From Thiomicrospira cyclica ALM1 (GTDB lineage Bacteria > Pseudomonadota > Gammaproteobacteria > Thiomicrospirales > Thiomicrospiraceae): a DNA stretch of 64,000 nt. Location of the stretch: contig NC_015581.1 in assembly GCF_000214825.1 (NCBI RefSeq), forward strand, positions 496,001-560,000, written 5' to 3'. The notes beneath the pieces are model-generated. The model worked only from the letters and a program-made list of their open reading frames with translations. It had not been told where the DNA came from and ran no database searches. Below, piece after piece: positions 44,563-60,150 of the stretch. The stretch's first letter is position 1. Each line of letters begins with the position of its first letter. Made by a program: the position numbers and the translations under genes.

Positions 44563-44606
44563 AAACTAGCAGGCCTGCTATGAATCATCAGCAGGCCTGC
44601 TAGTTT
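44563..44606. repeat. Inverted pair of palindromic repeats downstream of dsbD
   Basis: Two copies of GCAGGCCTGC (CAGGCCTG at 44570 and 44592) lie in a perfect 17-bp inverted repeat, arms AAACTAGCAGGCCTGCT and its complement, with a 10-base loop. It is 20 bp after the dsbD stop (minus strand) and 166 bp before aroQ. It can form a strong hairpin in RNA from either strand and may end dsbD transcription, although the T-run is short. Confidence 0.85.
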
Positions 44607-49764: not shown

Positions 49765-49977
49765 TTAGCAGCAAGACTTTGTACCGGGTGCTTGTTGAAT
49801 CGGTGGGCAGGGCACATCTCCATAGGAGCAATACACACAACAGTCGCCCGCTAAGGGCTTTAAGAGTGCGCCACAAAAGGTGCATTCATAAAAGTATTGG
49901 CAAGCATCCGTTGGCATCTGTTCGGTTTTTCTGTTGCCACATTCAGGGCAGGTCAGTGTTGAATTGATTTCTATCAT
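49765..49977 (-). CDS. GDCCVxC domain protein (copy 1, all-Cys form)
   Basis: A 70-aa protein of the GDCCVxC (seleno)protein family, which is often found near mercury-resistance genes; some members have selenocysteine in the GDCC motif. Here every position is Cys. Two CxxC-like pairs are visible: CPECGNRKTEQ near residue 10 and GDCCVYCSYGDVPCPPIQ near residue 47, with CTFCGALLKP between them, plus a terminal CC. AGGAGG is 7 bases upstream. It stands alone; its near-duplicate at 53684 is inside the mer-like operon. Confidence 0.85.
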   Translation of the reverse strand: MIEINSTLTCPECGNRKTEQMPTDACQYFYECTFCGALLKPLAGDCCVYCSYGDVPCPPIQQAPGTKSCC

Positions 49978-50096: not shown

Positions 50097-50675
50097 ATGA
50101 CTTTTTTTACGCCGTCAGTATTTAGCGTTTTTCGTGGGTTTTCGGTCGTTTTGTTGGCAGTTGTATTAGGTGTTGCTCAGGCGGCATCGGCGTTGCATCC
50201 CGATGTTGAGCGGATAATACAACAGCAGGTCGAGCCATCAGGTGTTGTCATTGAGGTGGAAAGTTTATCTCCCAAAGCGATGAGTGAAAATGTGACTTTC
50301 ATTCAGGCTCAAGTTGATGCACTGAAAGCCCAGTATCCTAATTTAGATGTGGTTATTGTCAGTCATGGTCGTGAATTAGTTGAACTTGCGAAGCCTGAGG
50401 TATCACCGCAACTTGGTTCAGCGTCTAGCCCATCAGCGCCTGCATTTTTAAGCGCTTTTGAAAATATGTCCACTAATCAGGGCGTAACCGTGCATGTCTG
50501 TGCCGTGGTTGCCGGTTGGGAAGGCAAAACCGATCAGGATTTTGTGAGTTTTGTAGATGTTTCAGCCTCTGGTGAGGCGCAAATTAATGACTATCGTGCA
50601 CTGGGGTATGAGGTGGTGATTATTGAGCGCTTGTCGGATGAAGATCGCAAGTCATTGCAACCGGTGGCGGATTAG
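50097..50675 (+). CDS. Periplasmic DsrE/DsrF-like protein
   Basis: 192 aa with a signal peptide (VVLLAVVLGVAQAASA) and a DsrE-like fold. The pattern is LKAQYPNLDVVIVSHGRELV near residue 80, then VTVHVCAVVAGWEGKTDQDF with a conserved Cys near 136, and FVDVSASGEAQINDYRALGYEVVII. Members of the superfamily bind sulfur or act in sulfur relay; the periplasmic version has no fixed assignment. Its 3' end overlaps the convergent rsuA-type gene by 24 bp. Confidence 0.7.
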   Translation: MTFFTPSVFSVFRGFSVVLLAVVLGVAQAASALHPDVERIIQQQVEPSGVVIEVESLSPKAMSENVTFIQAQVDALKAQYPNLDVVIVSHGRELVELAKPEVSPQLGSASSPSAPAFLSAFENMSTNQGVTVHVCAVVAGWEGKTDQDFVSFVDVSASGEAQINDYRALGYEVVIIERLSDEDRKSLQPVAD

Positions 50676-51344
50676 CATGAGCCGCTCTTGGTGTGACAGG
50701 CCACGGTATTGATTCGCGGCTAAATCGCCAAGATGCAAATGCATAATCCTTGTGCGCTGGAGTTTTTCTACGCGGTAACCCAGCGCTTGGCACATACGCC
50801 GAATTTGTAGGTTGAGTCCTTGGGTGAGTAGGATGTTAAAAACCTGATCGCTAACTGGCGTGACAACACAGGGCAGGGTAATAGTCTGTAAAATCGGCAC
50901 CCCCGCCGCCATAGCGCTTAAAAAAGCGGACGTGATTGGTTTATCCACCGTCACTAGATACTCTTTCTCATGCCCTTGTTCCGCCCGCAAAATCGGATTA
51001 AAAATCGCGCCATCATTGGTCAGCAATAACAAGCCTTCAGACGCCTTATCAAGCCGCCCGACCGCAAACAGCCGTTGCGGATAATCTAACGCATCCACAA
51101 GATTGCCTGGCACGCTTGGGTCGTTGGTACACACCACGCCCGCCGGCTTGTGATAAAGCAAGTAAACGGGTTTTGGTTGTTCGTCCAGCGGTTGCCCATC
51201 CAGTAAAACTACATCCTGCGAATCGACATTTTGACCAACCTGAGCAGCAAGGCCATTCACCTTAACCCGTCCCGCCAAAATCAAACGATCCGCTGCCCGT
51301 TTAGAACAAATCCCGCGTTGACTGAAATATTTATTGATTCGCAT
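50652..51344 (-). CDS. rsuA: RsuA-family 16S rRNA pseudouridine synthase
   Basis: Modifies uridine in small-subunit rRNA. 230 aa. S4 domain at residues 1-45 (RINKYFSQRGICSKRAADRL then LAGRVKVNG). The catalytic domain has LLYHKPAGVVCTNDP and FAVGRLDKASEGLLLLTNDG near residue 95 with the catalytic Asp, and GLNLQIRRMCQALGYRVEKL near 177. The first 74 codons and about 25 bp upstream are duplicated at 53060-53280. RsuA versus RluE/RluF cannot be told with certainty. Confidence 0.88.
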   Translation of the reverse strand: MRINKYFSQRGICSKRAADRLILAGRVKVNGLAAQVGQNVDSQDVVLLDGQPLDEQPKPVYLLYHKPAGVVCTNDPSVPGNLVDALDYPQRLFAVGRLDKASEGLLLLTNDGAIFNPILRAEQGHEKEYLVTVDKPITSAFLSAMAAGVPILQTITLPCVVTPVSDQVFNILLTQGLNLQIRRMCQALGYRVEKLQRTRIMHLHLGDLAANQYRGLSHQERLMLIRHRLQ

Positions 51345-51366
51345 AGCAGCCTATTCTAACCAATAC

Positions 51367-51374
51367 CAGGCCTG
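51367..51374. repeat. Intergenic copy of the iterated palindrome CAGGCCTG
   Basis: ACCAGGCCTGGT 22 bp upstream of rsuA. The similarity between rsuA and its partial copy at 53 kb ends exactly here: CCAATAC is shared, then the palindrome is replaced by unrelated sequence. Confidence 0.9.
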
Positions 51375-51446
51375 GTTGTGAGCGATTGACGGAATGTATC
51401 AATATTGACGCACACGGATAATGTGAAACAATCTATGTGTGATTTT

Positions 51447-51483
51447 ATTAACTATCCATGTATAATTTGATTAACTATCCATG
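51447..51483 (+). promoter_or_regulatory. Direct repeats and -10 upstream of the MazF-type module
   Basis: ATTAACTATCCATG occurs at 51447-51460 and 51470-51483, 23 bp apart, with TATAAT at 51461-51466 between them. The arrangement suits autorepression by the antitoxin complex. The ATG of the antitoxin is 17 bp downstream. Confidence 0.6.
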
Positions 51484-51499
51484 AGCTAAGGACTTCACT

Positions 51500-51748
51500 A
51501 TGCAAAGGGTTAACTCTTCAGATATTTTACGCAAGCCTGCGTTACTGAGCTCCTCAGATGTTTTATATATTGAGGATGGGCGCAAGCATATTTTAAAAAG
51601 TGTGCTGTTGCCGATTGATTTATATGAAACGGTTCGTGAACAAATTGAAGCCGAACTCTATTTGCGAAGAAACGCTAAAGCGCTTGACGCCAAGGCGTAT
51701 GCTGAGTTTAGTGAGACCGAGCAGGTTGTTGAGGATCTAGCGCTATGA
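51500..51748 (+). CDS. Antitoxin of a MazF/PemK-type module
   Basis: 82-aa protein preceding a MazF-type toxin, overlapping it by 4 bases. AAGGA lies 9 bases upstream of ATG. Sequence features are DVLYIEDGRKHILKSVLLPI, then an acidic helix ETVREQIEAELYLRRNAKAL and a Glu-rich end. The fold is not one I recognise with confidence; MazE/PemI-like by position. Confidence 0.7.
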   Translation: MQRVNSSDILRKPALLSSSDVLYIEDGRKHILKSVLLPIDLYETVREQIEAELYLRRNAKALDAKAYAEFSETEQVVEDLAL

Positions 51749-52095
51749 TCCGCCGGGGTGAGGTCTATCTTGTCAATTTTGGCAAACAATACAATAGCGA
51801 ATTCGGCAAGGTTCGACCCGCGCTAATTATTCAAAATGACTTAGCAAACCGTGTGCTTGAACGAGTGCACTTTAAAGGCGTCACCGTGATTCCATTGACG
51901 ACCAACCTGGTTGGTGGTGATTTGCGCGTTAAAATTGACGCACGAGATAACCTAAAACAAACCAGTGAAATCTGCATCAATGAGCTTTGCACACTCGATC
52001 TTTTACGCATTCAGCCATCCCCTCTTTTAACAAAACTGAACAGCGATGAGCTAAACGAAGTCGCACTCAAGCTGCGCCAACACCTTAGTATTTGA
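51745..52095 (+). CDS. MazF/PemK-family endoribonuclease toxin
   Basis: 116 aa. The MazF signatures are present: IRRGEVYLVNFGKQYNSEFGKVRPALII near residue 1-30 (in parts, with GKVRPALI), VTVIPLTTNLVGGDLRV near 50, and QTSEICINELCTLDLLRI near 75. It cleaves single-stranded RNA at short motifs when free of antitoxin. Intact in length and motifs. Confidence 0.9.
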   Translation: MIRRGEVYLVNFGKQYNSEFGKVRPALIIQNDLANRVLERVHFKGVTVIPLTTNLVGGDLRVKIDARDNLKQTSEICINELCTLDLLRIQPSPLLTKLNSDELNEVALKLRQHLSI

Positions 52096-52121
52096 TTGTC
52101 GGAAAAACAGTGATAGGTTAA

Positions 52122-52210
52122 CAAAGTTTATACAAGTCGTTTGGTGCCGGAATGCACCAACGATTTGAAACCGTGTTTAAGGTAATCGAAGCAATGGATT
52201 TGCAGTTTAA
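52122..52210 (+). pseudogene. HTH antitoxin-like relic
   Basis: An open frame reads GAGMHQRFETVFKVIEAM then DLQFKR. RFETVFKVIEAMDLQ matches the pattern after the HTH of XRE antitoxins such as HipB (compare IETLFKLLSVLDLELEI in the third hipB). It stops matching near 52210, where the modC copy begins. Confidence 0.4.
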
Positions 52211-52213
52211 GCG

Positions 52214-53257
52214 TTACTCCGCCAATGCCACCGATTTAATCAGTGCATAGACCACCAGGCCTGGTTGTAGGTTTAGGCGTTGGGCGGATTGTTGGGTTAT
52301 TTCGGCGAATAGGTGTTGCTGGTTGTCGAGGCGTAAGCGTACCAGTAAACGGTGGTCGGGTTGTTCGATCAGTTCGTCGATTTTGACGGGCATGTGGTTG
52401 ACGATGCTGAGGTCTTTGGGGTTGGAGAGGGCGAGGCTGACATCGCGGGCGAGTACGCGAATCCGCACGGGTTCTTGGTTAGTGCGGTTGAGCGGTTTGA
52501 CCCAGAGTGTGTTATCACCGAGTTGAATCTGTTGCAGGCCATCGCTAACCTTGCCAGGTTGGCCAATTAAAACGGAGACCGCGCCTTGTTCGTCAAATAG
52601 CGGGGAGTCGGGGCGGGAGAGGGTTTGTTGCAGGCTTTCGAGTTGTTCAACACGGCCTTGGTTTAACAGTAGCACTTGGTCGGCGAGGCGTTCGACTTCT
52701 TCCGGTGAATGGGTGATGAGTAGGATCGGTAGCTTGGAGGCTTTGGAGACGTCTTTGATCAGAGGAATCAGTTCGTTTTTGGTGCGCCAATCGAGTGCTG
52801 ACATGGGTTCGTCGAGCATCAGAATTTGCGGGTTGGAGAGCAGGGCGCGTGCGATGCCTACGCGTTGTTTCTGGCCGCCGGATAGGGTGAGCACCGATTG
52901 GTTGAGCAGGTTGCCAAGATTGAGCAGTTCAATCCAGCGGTCTTGCTGGGCGCGGTGTTGTGAGCGCTCGAAACCGGAGCGTTTGAGTGCGTAATCTAAA
53001 TTACCTTGCACGCTGAGGTGTGGCAAGAGCGCGGCATCTTGAAACACCACGCCAATCGGCTTGTGATAAAGGAGGTAAATGGGTTTGGGACGTTCACCTA
53101 ACGGTTGCCCGTTTAATAAAACCACATCCTGTGAATTCAGCTGTTGACCAACTTGAGCTAGTTGCCCATTCACCGCGACCTGCCCCGCTAAAATTAAACG
53201 ATCTGCCGCCCGTTTAGAACAATCCGCGCGTTAACTTAAATATTTATTAATGCGCAT
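52214..53257 (-). pseudogene. Chimeric duplicate: rsuA 5' part fused to modC 3' part
   Basis: From 53257 the frame reads as the start of rsuA (RINKYLS, stop, RADCSKRAADRL) with a nonsense codon at residue 9. It continues as rsuA to LLYHKPIGVV near 53060, then switches in frame to modC at FQDAALLPHLSVQGNLDYAL and follows modC to its end. The modC part matches 57574-58422 at a constant offset of 5360 with scattered substitutions and no indels. It lacks Walker A, so no ATPase is expected. A GTG at 53173 could still give a 319-aa hybrid containing the ABC signature, Walker B and the MOP domain. Confidence 0.88.
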
Positions 53258-53295
53258 AGCGGTCTTTTTTAGCCAATACGAGGACACAGTACTTA

Positions 53296-53694
53296 CTAAA
53301 GTGCTTGCAGGACGGGTAAACCAAAAGCAAAAAACGCACCAATACACCAAACCACCACCGCACCCCAATAAAAACGGTGATTCCATTTGTTAGCCGATTG
53401 GCAGGCTTGTGCGAGGGTTGGGTCAGTCGGGCAACTGCGTCCAGGGCGATAAAGCAGCCAACCGGCAAAAGCCAAAATCACGGCGGTTACGCCAAAAGTG
53501 ATGTGTTCGTTCATGCCAAACCACTGCAAAAACGGCAGATGCTCGCTGTACAAACTGACCACTGCCGACCCCATGCCTAAACTGACTAACACCACAGGTA
53601 ACGCGCAGCATAATAGCGTTGGAATCGACGCAAATAATACCAAAACGCCCCATTTTTTCGGTTTAGCGATGCGGTTGGCGGTTTTAGTTTCCAT
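53296..53694 (-). CDS. MerT-like mercuric ion transporter
   Basis: 132 aa inner-membrane protein with three or four segments. MerT landmarks: a Cys pair in the first segment, IPTLLCCALPVVLVSLGMG near residue 25, and a second pair in the loop GRSCPTDPTLAQACQSANKW near residue 87. It would take Hg(II) from MerP into the cytoplasm. Start ATG 53694 is inside the 3' end of the GDCCVxC gene. No merA reductase is found in the window, so fate of imported mercury is unclear. Confidence 0.75.
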   Translation of the reverse strand: METKTANRIAKPKKWGVLVLFASIPTLLCCALPVVLVSLGMGSAVVSLYSEHLPFLQWFGMNEHITFGVTAVILAFAGWLLYRPGRSCPTDPTLAQACQSANKWNHRFYWGAVVVWCIGAFFAFGLPVLQAL

Positions 53695-53896
53695 TGCAGC
53701 AACTACCTTGTTGTTGAATCGGTGGGCAAGGCACATCGGCATACGAACAATACACACAACAATCCCCTGCTAGGGGTTTTAACAGTGCCCCGCAAAATGT
53801 GCACTCATAAAAATATTGGCAGGCATCGGTAGGCATCTGCTCGGTTTTACTTTTGCCACACTCGGGGCAAGTAATCGTTGAGTTGAGTTCAATCAT
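53684..53896 (-). CDS. GDCCVxC domain protein (copy 2, all-Cys form)
   Basis: 70 aa, the same length as copy 1 at 49765 and nearly identical from TEQMPTDACQYFYECTFCGA to GDCCVYCSYADVPCPPIQQ. It lies between merP-like and merT-like genes, overlapping both. Start ATG 53896 follows AAGGAAGG by 6 bases; an ATG at 53902 would be inside that site. The context suggests a role in thiol chemistry with mercury or another soft metal. Confidence 0.85.
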   Translation of the reverse strand: MIELNSTITCPECGKSKTEQMPTDACQYFYECTFCGALLKPLAGDCCVYCSYADVPCPPIQQQGSCCNGN

Positions 53897-54201
53897 ACGC
53901 ATCCTTCCTTCGTAGTCATGCTTTTAAACGCAAAGCCGCGTTGGCGAAAAATAGTGTTTAACTGTTCTTCAGTAAACTGAATCGAGCCGTCGGTGCAAAT
54001 GCTGACTTCGCCTTTGCGTACATCGGTTTTAATGGATTTTACGCCATCCATCTTCTTAAATTCGGCTTCTGCGCGTGGCACACAGCTTACGCAGGTGACG
54101 CCGCCGATTTGAATTTCATAGGTTTGCTCAGCGGCTTGCATCGATAAGCTACTCAGGCTCAAAACGATACCTGCAATCCATGCATTAGGTTTTGTTGTCA
54201 T
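53893..54201 (-). CDS. MerP-like periplasmic heavy-metal-binding protein
   Basis: 102 aa with signal peptide (GIVLSLSSLSMQAAEQ) and an HMA fold. GGVTCVSCVPRAEAEFKKMDGVKSI carries the CxxC metal site near residue 36-39, and a further Cys lies in EVSICTDG. FRQRGFAFKS closes the fold. It would scavenge Hg(II) in the periplasm and hand it to MerT. It overlaps merR by 17 bases and GDCCVxC by 4. Confidence 0.8.
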   Translation of the reverse strand: MTTKPNAWIAGIVLSLSSLSMQAAEQTYEIQIGGVTCVSCVPRAEAEFKKMDGVKSIKTDVRKGEVSICTDGSIQFTEEQLNTIFRQRGFAFKSMTTKEGCV

Positions 54202-54604
54202 GCTCGTCTCCGTAAAAATGTTTGATCAAACTGCATTGCTCCAAGCTCGCGCCTTGATGACATTGCGCATGCAGTTGCTCCAAACCGAGTTTAATCTGCG
54301 CTAAATCCGCCATGCGTTGATTGATTTGCGCAATTTTCAATTCCGCACGTTGTTGAATATCGCCACATTGCGCAGAGGGTTGTTGGTGTAACTCCAGTAG
54401 CTCTTTAATTTCGTCCAACGTAAAGCCCAGTGTTTGCGCACGCCGAATAAAAGCTAGTTGCTTAATGTTGTTATCGCTGTAAAGTCGATAACCCGAGGCA
54501 CTGCGCTGCGCAGGCAGGATTAATTCCAACTGCTCGTAATAACGCAGCGTGTCGGTTTTGACACCGGCCTGTTTCGCCAGCTTACCAATCGTTAATAAGG
54601 TCAT
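54185..54604 (-). CDS. MerR-family regulator with MerR/PbrR-type Cys triad
   Basis: 139 aa. HTH: LTIGKLAKQAGVKTDTLRYY followed by EQLELILPAQRSASGYRLYS. Metal ligands are Cys80, Cys115 and Cys124. Offsets 35 and 9 are identical to those of MerR (82, 117, 126) and PbrR (78, 113, 122). With MerP- and MerT-like genes downstream, Hg(II) is the most likely inducer. It is the first gene of the operon, on the same strand as its targets, rather than divergent as in classical mer. Confidence 0.88.
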   Translation of the reverse strand: MTLLTIGKLAKQAGVKTDTLRYYEQLELILPAQRSASGYRLYSDNNIKQLAFIRRAQTLGFTLDEIKELLELHQQPSAQCGDIQQRAELKIAQINQRMADLAQIKLGLEQLHAQCHQGASLEQCSLIKHFYGDEHDNKT

Positions 54605-54623
54605 GATTTACCCTCTGAAAGCT

Positions 54624-54655
54624 ATCATAAACCTTAGAGTATAGTCCAAGGTCAA
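54624..54655 (-). promoter_or_regulatory. MerR-type promoter with long spacer
   Basis: On the minus strand TTGACC (54655 to 54650) and TATGAT (54629 to 54624) are separated by 20 bases (19 if TTATGA is used). The spacer holds an imperfect dyad, ACCTTGGAC and CTCTAAGGT. Overlong spacers with a dyad are the hallmark of promoters twisted open by MerR-family activators. Confidence 0.8.
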
Positions 54656-54696
54656 GGGTTGTTTTAGATAGAAATGACTAGGCCTGTTTATTCCAC

Positions 54697-54704
54697 CAGG
54701 CCTG
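54697..54704. repeat. Intergenic copy of the iterated palindrome CAGGCCTG
   Basis: ACCAGGCCTGGT 22 bp after the stop of the MBL gene, between it and the merR promoter. A near copy, TAGGCCTG, lies 18 bp away. Confidence 0.9.
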
Positions 54705-54725
54705 GTTGTACAGAATGGAAAGGTG

Positions 54726-55688
54726 TTATTCAAATTCCAATGCGGCAAAAATCCGCGAAGCATTGATGGCGGCCAGTTCTTCAAAGGTGTTGAGATGGCT
54801 AAATTGAGTTTGATCAATCTTCGAGGCATCGGCTAAGCCGCCGCCTTGTTCTATCAATTCACGAACCTGCTGATGCATATAAACCAAATAGTCATGGGTG
54901 TAGCGATTAACCTGCTCAAACCTGGTGACGCTGCCATGCCCGGGAACAATGATTTTATCTCGCGCTAGCTTGGCAAATTCCTGCCAAGTTTGCACCCAAC
55001 CCAGGGTGTCGGTTTCGGGTAAGACGTTTAATAACCGCTCATGAAACGCAATATCACCGGCTAAAACCACATTGCGTTCGGCAAGGATAATAGAAATGTC
55101 GCCCGGTACATGCGCCGAACCCAGCCAACGTACTTGGGCCGTAATACCGCCTAAATCCAAATCGAGCGACGAATCAAAAGTACGATCAAAGCTTACCATT
55201 TTTGTGCCATCCGCTTTTTCGCGGGTGACGCGGGTGGTGGATTCTAAGTAGGCGTGTTTATTGGTTTCAAATACCCGAACCGCGTCTTGGTGTGCGATCA
55301 GTTCAGCGCCCTGTTGTTTCCAGTAGTGATTGCCAGTGGTGGCATGCAAATCGCCATTTTCCGCCACCATGTATAGAATCGGCTTGTTAGTGTGTTTTTT
55401 AATTTCATCATGCAAGGCTTTGGCGACCAGATAGGACGCACCGGCATTAAATACAAGTACGCCACGCTCGCCGATCACAAACACCATATTGTTATTGTGG
55501 CCGGAATTTTCGTAACTAGGGCCTTGGGTGGCACCAATCGCCGCATAAACACCCTCCGCCACCTTAACGGGTTGGCTATAAAGCAAAGAGCTTGGGTATT
55601 TATCCGATTGAGCGAAAGCTTGTGTGCTGATTAAACCGGGTAGCGCGGCGATGAGGCCGAGTGAGGTTAAAAAACGTCTACGTTTCAA
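54726..55688 (-). CDS. MBL-fold protein with altered metal motif (SoxH-like), Tat signal
   Basis: 320 aa from TTG 55688, chosen because AAGGGGA precedes it by 7 bases. The product then starts MKRRRFLTSLGLIAALPG, a Tat-like signal with cleavage near TQAFA. The MBL fold is recognisable by VFVIGERGVLVFNAGAS, GSAHVPGDISI (His), VLAGDIAF (Asp) and VPGHGSV (His). The canonical HxHxDH is replaced by ENGDLH near residue 113, keeping only the last His. I recall related SoxH-like proteins with similar ENG-x-x-H, so this may be a family trait. Divergent from the BASS transporter pseudogene. Confidence 0.7.
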   Translation of the reverse strand: MKRRRFLTSLGLIAALPGLISTQAFAQSDKYPSSLLYSQPVKVAEGVYAAIGATQGPSYENSGHNNNMVFVIGERGVLVFNAGASYLVAKALHDEIKKHTNKPILYMVAENGDLHATTGNHYWKQQGAELIAHQDAVRVFETNKHAYLESTTRVTREKADGTKMVSFDRTFDSSLDLDLGGITAQVRWLGSAHVPGDISIILAERNVVLAGDIAFHERLLNVLPETDTLGWVQTWQEFAKLARDKIIVPGHGSVTRFEQVNRYTHDYLVYMHQQVRELIEQGGGLADASKIDQTQFSHLNTFEELAAINASRIFAALEFE

Positions 55689-55733
55689 TGGTATTCCCCT
55701 TATTTTTTTATTTGTAGAGCAGAGCACGCTCAG

Positions 55734-55748
55734 CCATATAATATATGG
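55734..55748. promoter_or_regulatory. Palindrome in the divergent MBL/BASS promoter region
   Basis: Perfect 15-bp palindrome CCATATAATATATGG, 46 bp from the MBL start and 39 bp from the BASS start. It is an AT-rich dyad of the kind used by ArsR-family repressors and also contains TATAAT. Confidence 0.5.
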
Positions 55749-55786
55749 AAAATGAAATATATGACAAACAAAGCGGGGAATGCAAC

Positions 55787-56739
55787 ATGCAGCGAATAAC
55801 GCTTGAGCGGTACACCAAATTGGATTTTATCTGTTAGCGATTACAGCAGGCCTGGTGGTGGGTCGTGTCGCGGGAGGATTAAACAGTTTATTTGAGTGGC
55901 TATTGTGGCCGGTATTAGCGTTTTTACTCTATGCCACTTTTTTACAGGTGCCGTTATTGCATCTTAAAGAGGCATTTAGCGATAAGCGATTTGCACTGGC
56001 TAACCTGTTAGGTAACTTTGTGCTGGTGCCGCTGATGGTGTGGGGGCTAATTCAGTTTTTGCCTGATGATTCTTTATTGCGCTTAGGCGTGCTGTTGGTG
56101 TTGCTTGTACCTTGCACGGATTGGTTTATCACCTTTACGCAATTAGGGCGTGGATGCAGTGCGCGGGCAATCGCCATTTCGCCGGTTAATCTCGGTTTAC
56201 AACTTTTGCTGCTACCGTTTTATTTGTGGCTCATGTTGCCGGACAGTTTTTCGATTGCGGTCGATTGGCAAGATTTACAGGGGGCGATACTGATTATTAT
56301 TGTGCCCTTGATCTTGGCTGTACTAAGTGAAAAATGGATTGAGCGTAAGCCAAAACGTGCCGTTTTTAGAGAGATGTTCGCTTGGTGGCCTGTGCCACTC
56401 CTTGCGCTGGTTGTGTTTCTGATTGCCGCCTCACAATCGCAAGCTGTTTGGTTGGCCGCGCATAGCTTGCTGGTGGTTATTCCGGTGTTTATCGCGTTTT
56501 TAGTTTTGGCTGCACTGTTGGCGAAGTCGATGAGCCAGGTGTTAAAGCTGACTCAAGAGCAGGGTCGCACCCTAGCGTTTAGTTTTGGCACACGCAATTC
56601 ATTTGTGGTGTTGCCAATTGCGCTCAGTTTGCCGCAAGGCGCAGAAATTGTTGTGCTGGTTATCGTATTGCAGTCATTGGTCGAGCTGTTGGGGATGGTG
56701 GTTTACTTGTGGTGGTTACCGAATAAATTGTTTAGATGA
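55787..56739 (+). pseudogene. BASS-superfamily (arsenic resistance-like) transporter with N-terminal frameshift
   Basis: ATG 55787 with GGGGA upstream reads MQRITLERYTKLDFIC and stops. Two bases later in phase the frame reads HQIGFYLLAITAGLVVGR and continues to 56739. The expected family start LER-HQIGFYLLAI is restored by removing TA at 55811-55812, so a 2-bp insertion has broken the gene. The rest has about nine membrane segments, with VPCTDWFITFTQLGRGCSA near the family centre and a late FGTRNSFVVLPIAL. A shorter product could begin at GTG 55855, lacking most of helix 1. Confidence 0.75.
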
Positions 56740-56761
56740 TGGATGGTTCAACGCCCATGAC

Positions 56762-56769
56762 CAGGCCTG
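56762..56769. repeat. Intergenic copy of the iterated palindrome CAGGCCTG
   Basis: ACCAGGCCTGGT in the 134-bp convergent gap between the BASS gene and the TauE/SafE gene. Confidence 0.9.
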
Positions 56770-56873
56770 GTGGCGGATTATTTAAATTGGAAGCATAGAT
56801 CATGAGTGATTTCGCGCATTAAAAATCATCCAGAACAAACTATCCATGCTGGAAAAGTTTGCAGCGGTGTTGT

Positions 56874-57569
56874 TTAATGCTTAAACACTTTCCACGCGGA
56901 TAACAGCAGTAATACAGCTAAAAACAAGCCGAGCCATTGTGCCGGAACCAGGCCGAGCATCAGGCCGCCGACCAGCATGGTAGGCAGGCTGACCAATAGC
57001 GACAAACTGCCTGCGGTTTTGATATCGATACCCCAAAGAATCACAATAATCGGAATCAGTAGTTCGCCACCGGCGACACCAAGAACCGCCGCCACGATGC
57101 CAACCACCAGGCCTGCTAATAAACCAACCAATGCTTGTAACCAGGCCTGGTGGAATAAAGCTGAACCGCCTTCACCAAACCCGATTAAGTGCTCCCAAAA
57201 CATAATAATGGCCAATGCAATCAATAAACCAAATACCACGCGGTTGAGCATGGCGGGGGCGAGCTTTATCACATAACCAGCGGCATACCATGCACCCACG
57301 ACTGAACCGACCAGCAGATTGACCACAATCGGCCAGTGGGGCAGCAGGCTTTCCATTGGTACACTAAAACCGCGAGAAAAAATCGAGGTGATGACCACTA
57401 CTAGGCTCATGGCTTTGTTGAGAATAATTGCTTCCAGCGTGGGCAAGCTGAACATCGCCACCAAAATCGGCAAACGAAATTCCGCACCGCCCAATCCAAT
57501 CAGCCCACCTAGTAATCCGATAAGTGCGCCCAATATCAAAGCTAACCAGAGTTTTTGCAATCGGCTCAT
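56874..57569 (-). CDS. TauE/SafE (TSUP) family permease
   Basis: 231-aa inner-membrane protein with about seven segments. TSUP landmarks: GALIGLLGGLIGLGGAEFRLP near residue 18 (in parts) and its repeat GIVAAVLGVAGGELLIPIIV near residue 157. Members export sulfite, sulfoacetate or related anions. It starts 4 bp after modC on the same strand, so it is probably transcribed with the molybdate operon. It contains two adjacent palindrome copies (57108 and 57142). Confidence 0.88.
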   Translation of the reverse strand: MSRLQKLWLALILGALIGLLGGLIGLGGAEFRLPILVAMFSLPTLEAIILNKAMSLVVVITSIFSRGFSVPMESLLPHWPIVVNLLVGSVVGAWYAAGYVIKLAPAMLNRVVFGLLIALAIIMFWEHLIGFGEGGSALFHQAWLQALVGLLAGLVVGIVAAVLGVAGGELLIPIIVILWGIDIKTAGSLSLLVSLPTMLVGGLMLGLVPAQWLGLFLAVLLLLSAWKVFKH

Positions 57570-57573
57570 TGCA

Positions 57574-58641
57574 TTATTCCGCCAATGCGACTGACTTAAT
57601 CAGGGCATAGATCACCAGGCCTGGTTGTAGGTTTAGGCGTTGGGCGGATTGTTGGGTGATTTCGGCGAATAGGTGTTGCTGGTTGTCGAGGCGTAAGCGC
57701 ACTAATAAACGGTGGTCGGGTTGTTCGATCAGTTCGTCGATTTTGACTGGCATGTGGTTGACGATGCTGAGGTCTTTTGGGTCGGAGAGGGCGAGGCTGA
57801 CATCGCGGGCGAGTACGCGAATCCGCACGGGTTCTTGGTTGGCGCGTTTGAGGGGTTTTACCCAAAGTGTGTTATCGCCGAGCTGAATCTGTTGTAGGCC
57901 ATCGCTAACCTTGCCCGGTTGGCCAATTAAAACGGAGACCGCACCTTGTTCGTCAAATAGCGGGGAGTCTGGGCGGGATAGGGTTTGTTGCAGGCTTTCG
58001 AGTTGTTCAACACGGCCTTGGTTTAACAGCAGCACTTGGTCGGCGAGGCGTTCGACTTCTTCCGGTGAATGGGTGATGAGTAGGATCGGTAGCTTGGAGG
58101 CTTTGGAGACGTCTTTGATCAGAGGAATCAGTTCGTTTTTGGTGCGCCAATCGAGTGCCGACATGGGTTCGTCAAGCATCAGGATTTGCGGGTTGGAGAG
58201 CAGGGCGCGTGCGATGCCTACGCGTTGTTTCTGGCCGCCGGATAGGGTGAGCACCGATTGGTTGAGCAGGTTGCCGAGATTGAGCAGTTCAATCCAGCGG
58301 TCTTGCTGGGCGCGGTGTTGTGCTCGCTCGAAGCCGGAGCGTTTGAGCGCGTAATCTAAATTACCTTGTACGCTGAGATGCGGCAAGAGCGCGGCATCTT
58401 GAAACACCATGCCGATGCGGCGTTGGTGAACCGGTAAAAACAACTTGTCCGATTGCCAGGCCTGGTTGTTGAGTTTGACCCAGCCTTGCGCTTTTTCTAA
58501 ACCGGATAGGGTTTTAATGAGGGTGGTTTTGCCGCAACCGGAAGGGCCAAAAACCGCGGTAATGCCGTCGCCGGGCAGTTGCACATCACCGGTTTGGAAA
58601 TCAAATCCCGGATAGCTGTGTTGGAGATTAAATTCAAGCAT
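57574..58641 (-). CDS. modC: Molybdate ABC transporter ATPase ModC
   Basis: 355 aa. Walker A FGPSGCGKTTLIKTLSG near residue 33, Q-loop GMVFQDAALLPHLSV, signature LSGGQKQRVGIARALLSNP near 128, Walker B LMLDEPMSALD near 150, switch ITHSPEEV. The C-terminal MOP domain (residues about 290-355, PVRIRVLARDVSLAL, LVRLRLDNQQHLFAEIT) binds molybdate and regulates transport. Its 3' 840 bp were copied to 52.2-53.06 kb. Nine bases after modB. Confidence 0.95.
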   Translation of the reverse strand: MLEFNLQHSYPGFDFQTGDVQLPGDGITAVFGPSGCGKTTLIKTLSGLEKAQGWVKLNNQAWQSDKLFLPVHQRRIGMVFQDAALLPHLSVQGNLDYALKRSGFERAQHRAQQDRWIELLNLGNLLNQSVLTLSGGQKQRVGIARALLSNPQILMLDEPMSALDWRTKNELIPLIKDVSKASKLPILLITHSPEEVERLADQVLLLNQGRVEQLESLQQTLSRPDSPLFDEQGAVSVLIGQPGKVSDGLQQIQLGDNTLWVKPLKRANQEPVRIRVLARDVSLALSDPKDLSIVNHMPVKIDELIEQPDHRLLVRLRLDNQQHLFAEITQQSAQRLNLQPGLVIYALIKSVALAE

Positions 58642-58650
58642 CGCGGTCTC

Positions 58651-59355
58651 CTAGAGTTTGAGCGGCGCCATAAAACGGCGGTTAAGGGCATAAAACACGG
58701 CCAGAATCAAAAAGGACAAAATCAATAGAATCGCCGATAAACGATGCGCCGCGGCATAGTCCATGCCTTGGGTGTAGTCGTAAATCGCGATCGACACCAC
58801 TTTGGTTTCACCAGGGATGGAGCCGCCCATCATCGCAATCACACCAAACTCGCCAAGCGTATGCGCAAATGAAATCACAATCGCGGTAAAAAATCCGCCA
58901 CGAGCGAGTGGCAAAATCACGGTAAAAAAACGATCAATCGGCCCGGCGCCGAGCGTGGCGGCGGCGTGAATCGGGTTACGTGGCATGGAGGCAAAGCCTT
59001 CGCGCATCGGTTGAATCGCAAACGGCAGCGAAAAAATCACCGAGCCGATCAGAATGCCGGTAAAGCTAAAAGCGAGATGGTCGAGTCCCATCGCTTCCAT
59101 TGTGCCGCCGACCCAGCCATAAGGGCCGAGAATAATCAGCAGATAAAAGCCGAGCACGGTAGGCGGCAGCACCAAGGGCAAAGCAATCAGCGCCGATACC
59201 AGCGATTCCCAGCGTGATTCGGTAAATGCCAACCACCAAGCGAGCGGCGCCCCAAATACCACTAGAATCACCGTGGTGTAAAACGCCAGTTTAAAGGTCA
59301 GCCATAGGGCTTGCAGTTCGGCGGGGGTAATGGCAAAAAAATCCATAAATTCCAT
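58651..59355 (-). CDS. modB: Molybdate ABC transporter permease ModB
   Basis: 234-aa permease with about six segments. ModB landmarks are PLAWWLAF, ALIALPLVLPPTVLGFYLL near residue 55, GPYGWVG and the EAA loop EGFASMPRNPIHAAATLGAG near 120 that contacts ModC. FAHTLGEFGVIAMMGGSIPG near 165 is typical. An internal ATG at 59346 gives a product three residues shorter and may be the true start; neither has a strong ribosome-binding site. Confidence 0.95.
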   Translation of the reverse strand: MEFMDFFAITPAELQALWLTFKLAFYTTVILVVFGAPLAWWLAFTESRWESLVSALIALPLVLPPTVLGFYLLIILGPYGWVGGTMEAMGLDHLAFSFTGILIGSVIFSLPFAIQPMREGFASMPRNPIHAAATLGAGPIDRFFTVILPLARGGFFTAIVISFAHTLGEFGVIAMMGGSIPGETKVVSIAIYDYTQGMDYAAAHRLSAILLILSFLILAVFYALNRRFMAPLKL

Positions 59356-59403: not shown

Positions 59404-60150
59404 TTAGTTCACGACAAAGCCGTATTGTTCCATGATCTGTTTCGCTACTGGCTGCTCCATAAATTCGGCAAACCGAAAAGCAATCGGATTGTCTTTGGCG
59501 CGCTGCGTCACAATATAAGCTTGCTCAAGCGGTTGATGCATGTCTTCGGGGATTAAGCTGTAGCCACCGTGGCGCGAAAGTTGCGGATTGAGTGCCAAGG
59601 CGAGCGCGATAATGCCGATATTGGCGGCACCGAATTCGATGAGTTGGGCGGTGTGGGCAATGTTTTCGCCAATCACGATTTTGGGTTGAATCTCATCCCA
59701 AATGCCCGCGGCTTGCAAGGCTTCCATCGCGCGCACGCCATAGGGAGCGTGATCCGGGCTGGCAATCGCTACGCGACGATAGCGACGTTCCATTAAATCG
59801 TTCAGGCTCATTTGGCTGGCATCATGGCGGCGACTCCAAATTACGATTCGACCGAGTGCGTAAAGTTTCGGTTCGGTGGCGGCAAAGCCTTTTTGTTGTA
59901 GGTCTTTCGGATACTCCATTGAAGCGGAGAAAAACAAATCAAACGGTGCGCCATTTTCAATTTGTTGTGAAAAGCGACCAGATGAACCATAAATCACTTC
60001 GACCTGATCATTAGGATAGGTTTTAAGATATTCGGCATGGATTTCATCTAACGCGAACTTTAAATCTGACGCAGCGGCAATAATCATTTTTTGCGCTTGG
60101 GCCGTTACACTAAATGTGCTGATCATCAGCGCGATAAAAAAGGTTTTCAT
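59404..60150 (-). CDS. modA: Molybdate-binding periplasmic protein ModA
   Basis: 248 aa. Signal peptide (KTFFIALMISTFSVTAQAQ) then IIAAASDLKFALDEI, VEVIYGSSGRFSQQIENGAPFDLFFSAS near residue 50 (in parts) with the oxyanion-binding Ser, and IASPDHAPYGVRAMEAL near 130. ALGRIVIWSRR near 105 is also characteristic. It overlaps modE by 4 bases. A binding protein for molybdate or tungstate. Confidence 0.95.
   Translation of the reverse strand: MKTFFIALMISTFSVTAQAQKMIIAAASDLKFALDEIHAEYLKTYPNDQVEVIYGSSGRFSQQIENGAPFDLFFSASMEYPKDLQQKGFAATEPKLYALGRIVIWSRRHDASQMSLNDLMERRYRRVAIASPDHAPYGVRAMEALQAAGIWDEIQPKIVIGENIAHTAQLIEFGAANIGIIALALALNPQLSRHGGYSLIPEDMHQPLEQAYIVTQRAKDNPIAFRFAEFMEQPVAKQIMEQYGFVVN

Follow-up and report, generated by a model that had tools for sequence, protein, structure and literature searches.

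The locus analysed here poses two questions: how the beginning of rsuA, the gene for a 16S rRNA pseudouridine synthase, came to be joined in frame to the greater part of modC, the gene for the ATPase of the molybdate ABC transporter, and whether the resulting gene has a function. It lies in a stretch of 64,000 nucleotides from Thiomicrospira cyclica ALM1 (the window), in which the following features are relevant:

50652 to 51344, minus strand: rsuA, intact, with S4 and PseudoU_synth_2 domains (Pfam)
52214 to 53055, minus strand: modC', a second copy of modC codons 76 to 355 in an open frame, 95% nucleotide identity
52214 to 53173, minus strand: hybrid open reading frame, 319 amino acids from a GTG, with partial ABC_tran and full TOBE, without Walker A
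53044 to 53283, minus strand: rsuA', the beginning of a second rsuA preceded by 26 nt from before the ATG, with a stop at codon 9
53046 to 53055, minus strand: the joint, a ten-mer (GGC[G/A]TGGTGT) common to rsuA and modC with one mismatch
57574 to 58641, minus strand: modC, the intact original, with ABC_tran and TOBE above the Pfam cut-off
58651 to 59355: putative modB, ahead of modC, named from reading
59404 to 60150: putative modA, ahead of modC, named from reading

The chimera is real, and the description of its anatomy in an earlier note on this DNA proved accurate. Both halves lie on the minus strand, where the second rsuA contributes its 5' part and continues in frame into the second modC. 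As that note had stated, modC' follows modC at a constant offset of 5360 without gaps, from 52211 to about 53055 (blastn identity 95.07% over 851 columns, E 0); over 281 codons, stop included, the two differ at 40 of 843 nucleotides, 34 of the differences being synonymous and 6 nonsynonymous, and the compared coding part holds no indel, frameshift or stop. The rsuA' half, with its ATG end at 53257, resembles rsuA to about codon 67-70 and shows 77.9% nucleotide identity (E 1e-50) to the intact gene (51131-51370), which is 1.9 kb away. The nonsense codon reported at residue 9 is a TAA; downstream of it the earliest in-frame start codon is indeed GTG 53173, proposed as the start of a 319-residue hybrid. 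The second rsuA is cut at about codon 67-70 and the second modC at about codon 76-79, and the fusion falls where it had been placed, at a spot where the two genes (rsuA GGCGTGGTGT, modC GGCATGGTGT) each encode G-V/M-V and nine of the ten joint bases are common to intact rsuA and intact modC. A match across the joint was found in none of the other 56 of the 57 genomes searched.

Several further genes surround the chimera (G000 denotes the genome of the window, G004 and G006 the two nearest relatives compared):

49765 to 49977, minus strand: GDCCVxC copy 1, grouping with G006 copy 1 (support 87)
51500 to 52095, plus strand: putative antitoxin and PemK/MazF-like toxin, located between rsuA and modC'
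53296 to 54604, minus strand: merR, HMA protein, GDCCVxC copy 2 and MerT-like protein, on the hybrid's strand and just upstream of it
56776 to 56868, plus strand: relic of an antitoxin-like HTH gene, of which G006 has a whole version between modC and rsuA

The order in the window is modC, TauE, SBF symporter, a metallo-beta-lactamase-like gene (Pfam score just under the cut-off), merR, merP, GDCCVxC copy 2, merT, the rsuA'-modC' chimera, mazF, putative mazE, rsuA, X (an unnamed gene at 50097-50675) and GDCCVxC copy 1. The placement of the chimera between a MazF module and a mer-like operon was borne out by Pfam: the toxin matched PemK/MazF with an E-value of 1e-16 and the MerR regulator and HMA protein scored above their cut-offs, while the MerT-like protein stayed below (23.3 against 32.9 bits); the protein preceding MazF, taken as the antitoxin, had no Pfam match. 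The mer segment shows 84-85% nucleotide identity to G006 and G004. The second GDCCVxC gene claimed for this zone is also present, with copies 1 and 2 (53684-53902) 82.6% identical over 195 nt. The HTH relic, located between the SBF symporter gene and the TauE gene, matches the G006 HTH gene at 94.6% over 37 nt and 81.9% over 72 columns. A mobile element as the copying agent was considered and set aside, as no transposase or integrase family was hit by the ten zone proteins scanned or by the three scanned from between merR and modC, and a search of the window gave no inverted repeats of at least 60 nt.

Comparison with relatives placed this arrangement in a broader context. The closest named relative is Thiomicrospira microaerophila ASL8-2 (95% amino-acid identity in the modC part). 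Among ten genomes searched, an rsuA orthologue was present only in G000, G004 and G006 (76% amino-acid identity to that of the window), the others having paralogues of 31-33% identity as well as partial matches of shorter length. Read in the orientation of modC, G004 has modC, a DUF6155 gene, yaeQ, rsuA, X, merR, merP, GDCCVxC, merT, a nif11-like gene and a nitroreductase-like gene. G006 begins with modC, a PIN toxin and Phd-type antitoxin, the HTH gene, relics, a 121-aa gene, yaeQ, rsuA and GDCCVxC copy 1, and continues past several other genes with a second copy of the 121-aa gene, the 3' end of yaeQ with the first 68 bp of rsuA, X, merR, merP, GDCCVxC copy 2, merT and nif11 (the names merR, merP, merT, trpB and nitroreductase in the relatives were read from the proteins). 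In all three species modC and rsuA neighbour each other on one strand, and pieces of their neighbourhood are duplicated in two of the three, G000 and G006; the G004 stretch compared with itself yielded no duplicated pieces. At locus L109 of G006 the duplicated pairs are 8262-8570/15467-15791, 9014-9322/15782-16088, 9978-10194/17571-17784 and 10238-10688/18223-18670 (86-94% identity); they belong to the rsuA-GDCCVxC-mer neighbourhood, with trpB-like and nitroreductase-like genes in between.

Between modC and rsuA, G006 also carries a mazF relic (31 bp, 90%, E 3e-7) and, 9 bp from it, a relic of the modC tail (39 bp, 87%, E 7e-9, 12 bp of which are an iterated palindrome), both E-values applying to a single small search; by translation the two were weak (tblastn E 0.016 and 0.11). 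A tree of the five GDCCVxC genes separated copy 1 of G000 and copy 1 of G006 from the rest (bootstrap 87), with conflict among sites, 4 backing this old split, 3 pairing the two G000 copies and 5 showing other patterns. The split and the relics, short as the pieces are and with the relic order of G006 reversed relative to the window, suggest that the duplication likely predates the separation of G000 and G006 and was later eroded differently in each line. The repeated local recombination suggested in the earlier note is strengthened by the duplicated pieces and relics of G006.

The palindrome in the modC-tail relic, CAGGCCTG (often ACCAGGCCTGGT), is highly iterated, with 35 sites in the window (13041, 49351, 51367, 52256, 54697, 57616 and 58457 among them) against 1.0 in shuffles (largest 4); the genome has 840 sites, whereas the reversed pattern used as a control occurs 3 times. 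Each of nine genus genomes has 840-1128 sites; among 58 family genomes, 30 have at least 409 and 28 have at most 74, with none between. It resembles, by analogy, the cyanobacterial HIP1 or an uptake sequence. PMC4390886 links HIP1 to methylases; a C5 methylase of the PF00145 family, an obvious analogy, was not found here, with no match at E 0.001 in the nine genus members. No paper treats the palindrome by title in the literature searched. Two AGCAGGCCTGCT palindromes between convergent genes (44563-44606) sit inside an inverted repeat of 44 bp and may represent a terminator made from the iterated palindrome. Ends of homology blocks fell within 15 bp of CAGGCCTG in 7 of 75 cases (2.7 expected, P 0.017); we do not claim that it sets breakpoints, because the ends lack independence (a single inverted pair of the palindrome itself supplies two of the seven) and alignments stop at a palindrome that is conserved. 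The palindrome may merit separate study.

Both halves of the chimera are closest to the local genes. An IQ-TREE tree of 16 rows placed modC' as sister to the modC of the window (support 87), and four-row distance sums placed both halves nearest to the intact genes of the window. The dS between modC' and modC was 0.18, compared with 0.30 from modC to G006 and 0.41 to G004; that between rsuA' and rsuA was 0.84, compared with 0.76-1.09 among the three orthologues (codon 9 dropped from all rows). The dS of each half is thus roughly comparable with that of the divergence from the relatives. The ratios to the orthologues overlap for the two halves, with rsuA dS near saturation, and are compatible with a single age, which they allow without requiring it.

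A rate comparison of the two modC copies, which the earlier note had suggested, revealed that the second copy has been constrained for most of its history; a function is not thereby established. Across codons 80-355 (joint excluded), private changes, few in number and polarised by two outgroups, were 9 synonymous and 2 nonsynonymous in modC', against 14:2 in modC, 30:4 in G004 and 17:13 in G006. With about 27% synonymous changes expected under neutrality, the P value for modC' was 2.7e-4 at kappa 2 (1.1e-4 to 7.9e-4 at kappa 1 to 5; 4e-4 by simulation), and the neutral share of the branch was at most roughly a quarter (5% level). The modC' half has therefore been under constraint for most of its history; its 9:2 ratio indicates that the second copy was not evolving as a free pseudogene, and its frame is not one free of selection as in a plain pseudogene. 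The open frame itself says little, because two thirds of neutrally simulated copies also gained no stop (stops only, without indels). Gene conversion from modC is, by argument, an insufficient cause of the few replacement changes: whatever private changes modC' gained after the last conversion event would have been neutral all the same. The rsuA' half shows, beside its stop, 7 third-position and 11 first- and second-position changes, and rsuA shows 7 and 4, with no significant difference between the two patterns (Fisher P 0.26). The constraint on modC' may stem from a full gene that was truncated late, from a recombined-in allele or, less likely, from a working hybrid; the first two accounts need nothing unusual.

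The predicted product retains part of the ModC machinery. The alignment and Pfam confirmed the claim that the hybrid has the ABC signature, Walker B and the MOP domain without Walker A: it keeps the residues of what we take to be the LSGGQ signature, Walker B and H-loop, as well as those of the Q-loop, but neither a counterpart of the GPSGCGKTT of modC nor the preceding strands. Its ABC_tran match starts only at profile position 36 of 137, whereas TOBE (PF03459) is covered from position 2 to 62 of 64 at 35.9 bits (cut-off 22.3); the S4 and pseudouridine synthase domains of intact rsuA are both missing from its Pfam matches. An AlphaFold model was of low confidence (mean pLDDT 62, pTM 0.48), with residues 1-42 below 50 and the rsuA-derived residues 1-40 at 23-33, and with higher block means for residues 51-110 (helical subdomain, 80-91) and 261-310 (part of TOBE, 75-87). 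The rsuA-derived N-terminus is modelled as disordered, and in this model the RsuA residues give the P-loop no substitute. A fold search returned ModBC 3d31 as the best match (TM about 0.4), which adds nothing beyond the sequence relationship. Expression is possible, judging from the position of the hybrid, which shares its strand with merT and begins about 120 nt downstream of it, and from a computed Shine-Dalgarno pairing of -10.1 kcal/mol at GTG 53173; promoter-like and terminator-like matches nearby were no more frequent than in shuffles. The product, which has no Walker A, is most likely inactive or not made. The earlier suggestion that it binds ModB or molybdate and interferes with transport is unsupported; Walker A is missing and the N-terminus is modelled at low confidence.

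Taken together, we consider it probable, at roughly 0.7, that the chimera is the scar of a local segmental duplication in the modC-rsuA neighbourhood, formed by an ordinary mechanism. modC and rsuA would have been close together on one strand ancestrally, as in G004 and G006, and illegitimate recombination at the ten-base near-identity would have joined the second rsuA to the second modC. The order rsuA'-modC', in which the end of a unit is followed by its start relative to the ancestral order, is that expected at the joint of a tandem duplication whose unit began in the middle of modC and ended in the middle of rsuA; a deletion joining two copies of a longer tandem array would produce the same order and is inseparable from it. 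The constrained look of modC' would be explained if, over most of the period since it split from modC, it had been a complete gene or a piece of another strain's modC that recombined in. The same-strand arrangement in two relatives, together with the relics and duplications of G006, makes a scar in a repeatedly duplicated neighbourhood the most likely origin. Against it stand the spacers 51345-52213 and 53284-57570, which hold different genes and have no repeat block in common, so that the lack of duplicated DNA between the genes counts against a simple one-step tandem form; the mer operon, which lies on the opposite side of rsuA' from that expected from G004 and G006; the purifying selection on modC', unexpected for a truncated piece dead from the start; the G006 relics, which are short, partly palindrome and reversed in order; and the conflict among the GDCCVxC sites. 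As a tentative refinement, not exclusive of the duplication scar, modC' (or modC) may have been overwritten by homologous recombination with another strain's modC allele atop an older rsuA'-modC' scar. The mostly silent differences fit this, and so does the irregular distribution of the 38 that lie outside the joint (longest gap P 0.05, variance P 0.02), although conserved motifs may account for such spacing; at 11 unpolarised differences modC' has the base of G004 at some and of G006 at others, and modB is 95% identical to G004 and 89% to G006 while the 3' part of modC is 91-92% identical to both. No donor allele was found, however, the nearest sequence being the window's own modC.

That the hybrid is expressed from GTG 53173 and useful, as the last gene of a merR-merP-GDCCVxC-merT operon encoding either a P-loop-less ModC that pairs with full ModC to form one composite ATP site or a TOBE oxyanion binder, is unlikely. 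The selection signal of modC', the open frame across the joint, the placement and ribosome-binding prediction and the TOBE score would all suit such a gene, but the missing Walker A and strands, the disordered N-terminus, the ease with which neutral copies stay open, the shuffle-level promoter and terminator matches and the lack of a match in relatives among the 57 genomes argue otherwise. Slightly more doubtful still is that selection would have kept a P-loop-less ModC as a mer-operon-linked subunit or regulator, whether as a ModC half-site partner or as an oxyanion binder under the metal-responsive MerR. Misjoins commonly arise from pairs of similar copies such as these, 5.4 kb apart, yet a misassembly between the two repeats is very improbable for copies that differ at 40 positions, a joint with only about 10 bp in common and a single-contig genome of 1,932,455 bases scored 100% complete.

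Tandem-duplication joints and deletion fusions at microhomology are known in bacterial chromosomes; no paper dealing by title with a bacterial chimeric gene was found in the literature searched. Nor was a treatment of this locus found there, including passages of PMC4390886, PMC11556111 and PMC6501319. The locus offers a clear case in which illegitimate recombination in a duplicating neighbourhood would have produced an in-frame hybrid gene in the small genome of a chemolithoautotroph, and it cautions against calling every hybrid either functional or dead, as the constraint on its conserved half predates or survives the fusion; a functional hybrid would be a rare example of P-loop loss giving rise to a new ABC subunit. 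Compared with RsuA, it is alike in the first 67-70 or so codons and differs in its stop at codon 9 and the loss of the catalytic domain. Compared with ModC, of which the closest solved example is 3d31_A, it has the same Q-loop, LSGGQ, Walker B and H-loop residues and TOBE domain, whereas the first 75 codons, including the P-loop, are replaced by RsuA residues. With the known joints it shares the segment order, the near-identical ten-mer and truncated genes on both sides; in contrast to them, the duplicated spacer is gone and one half is under constraint.
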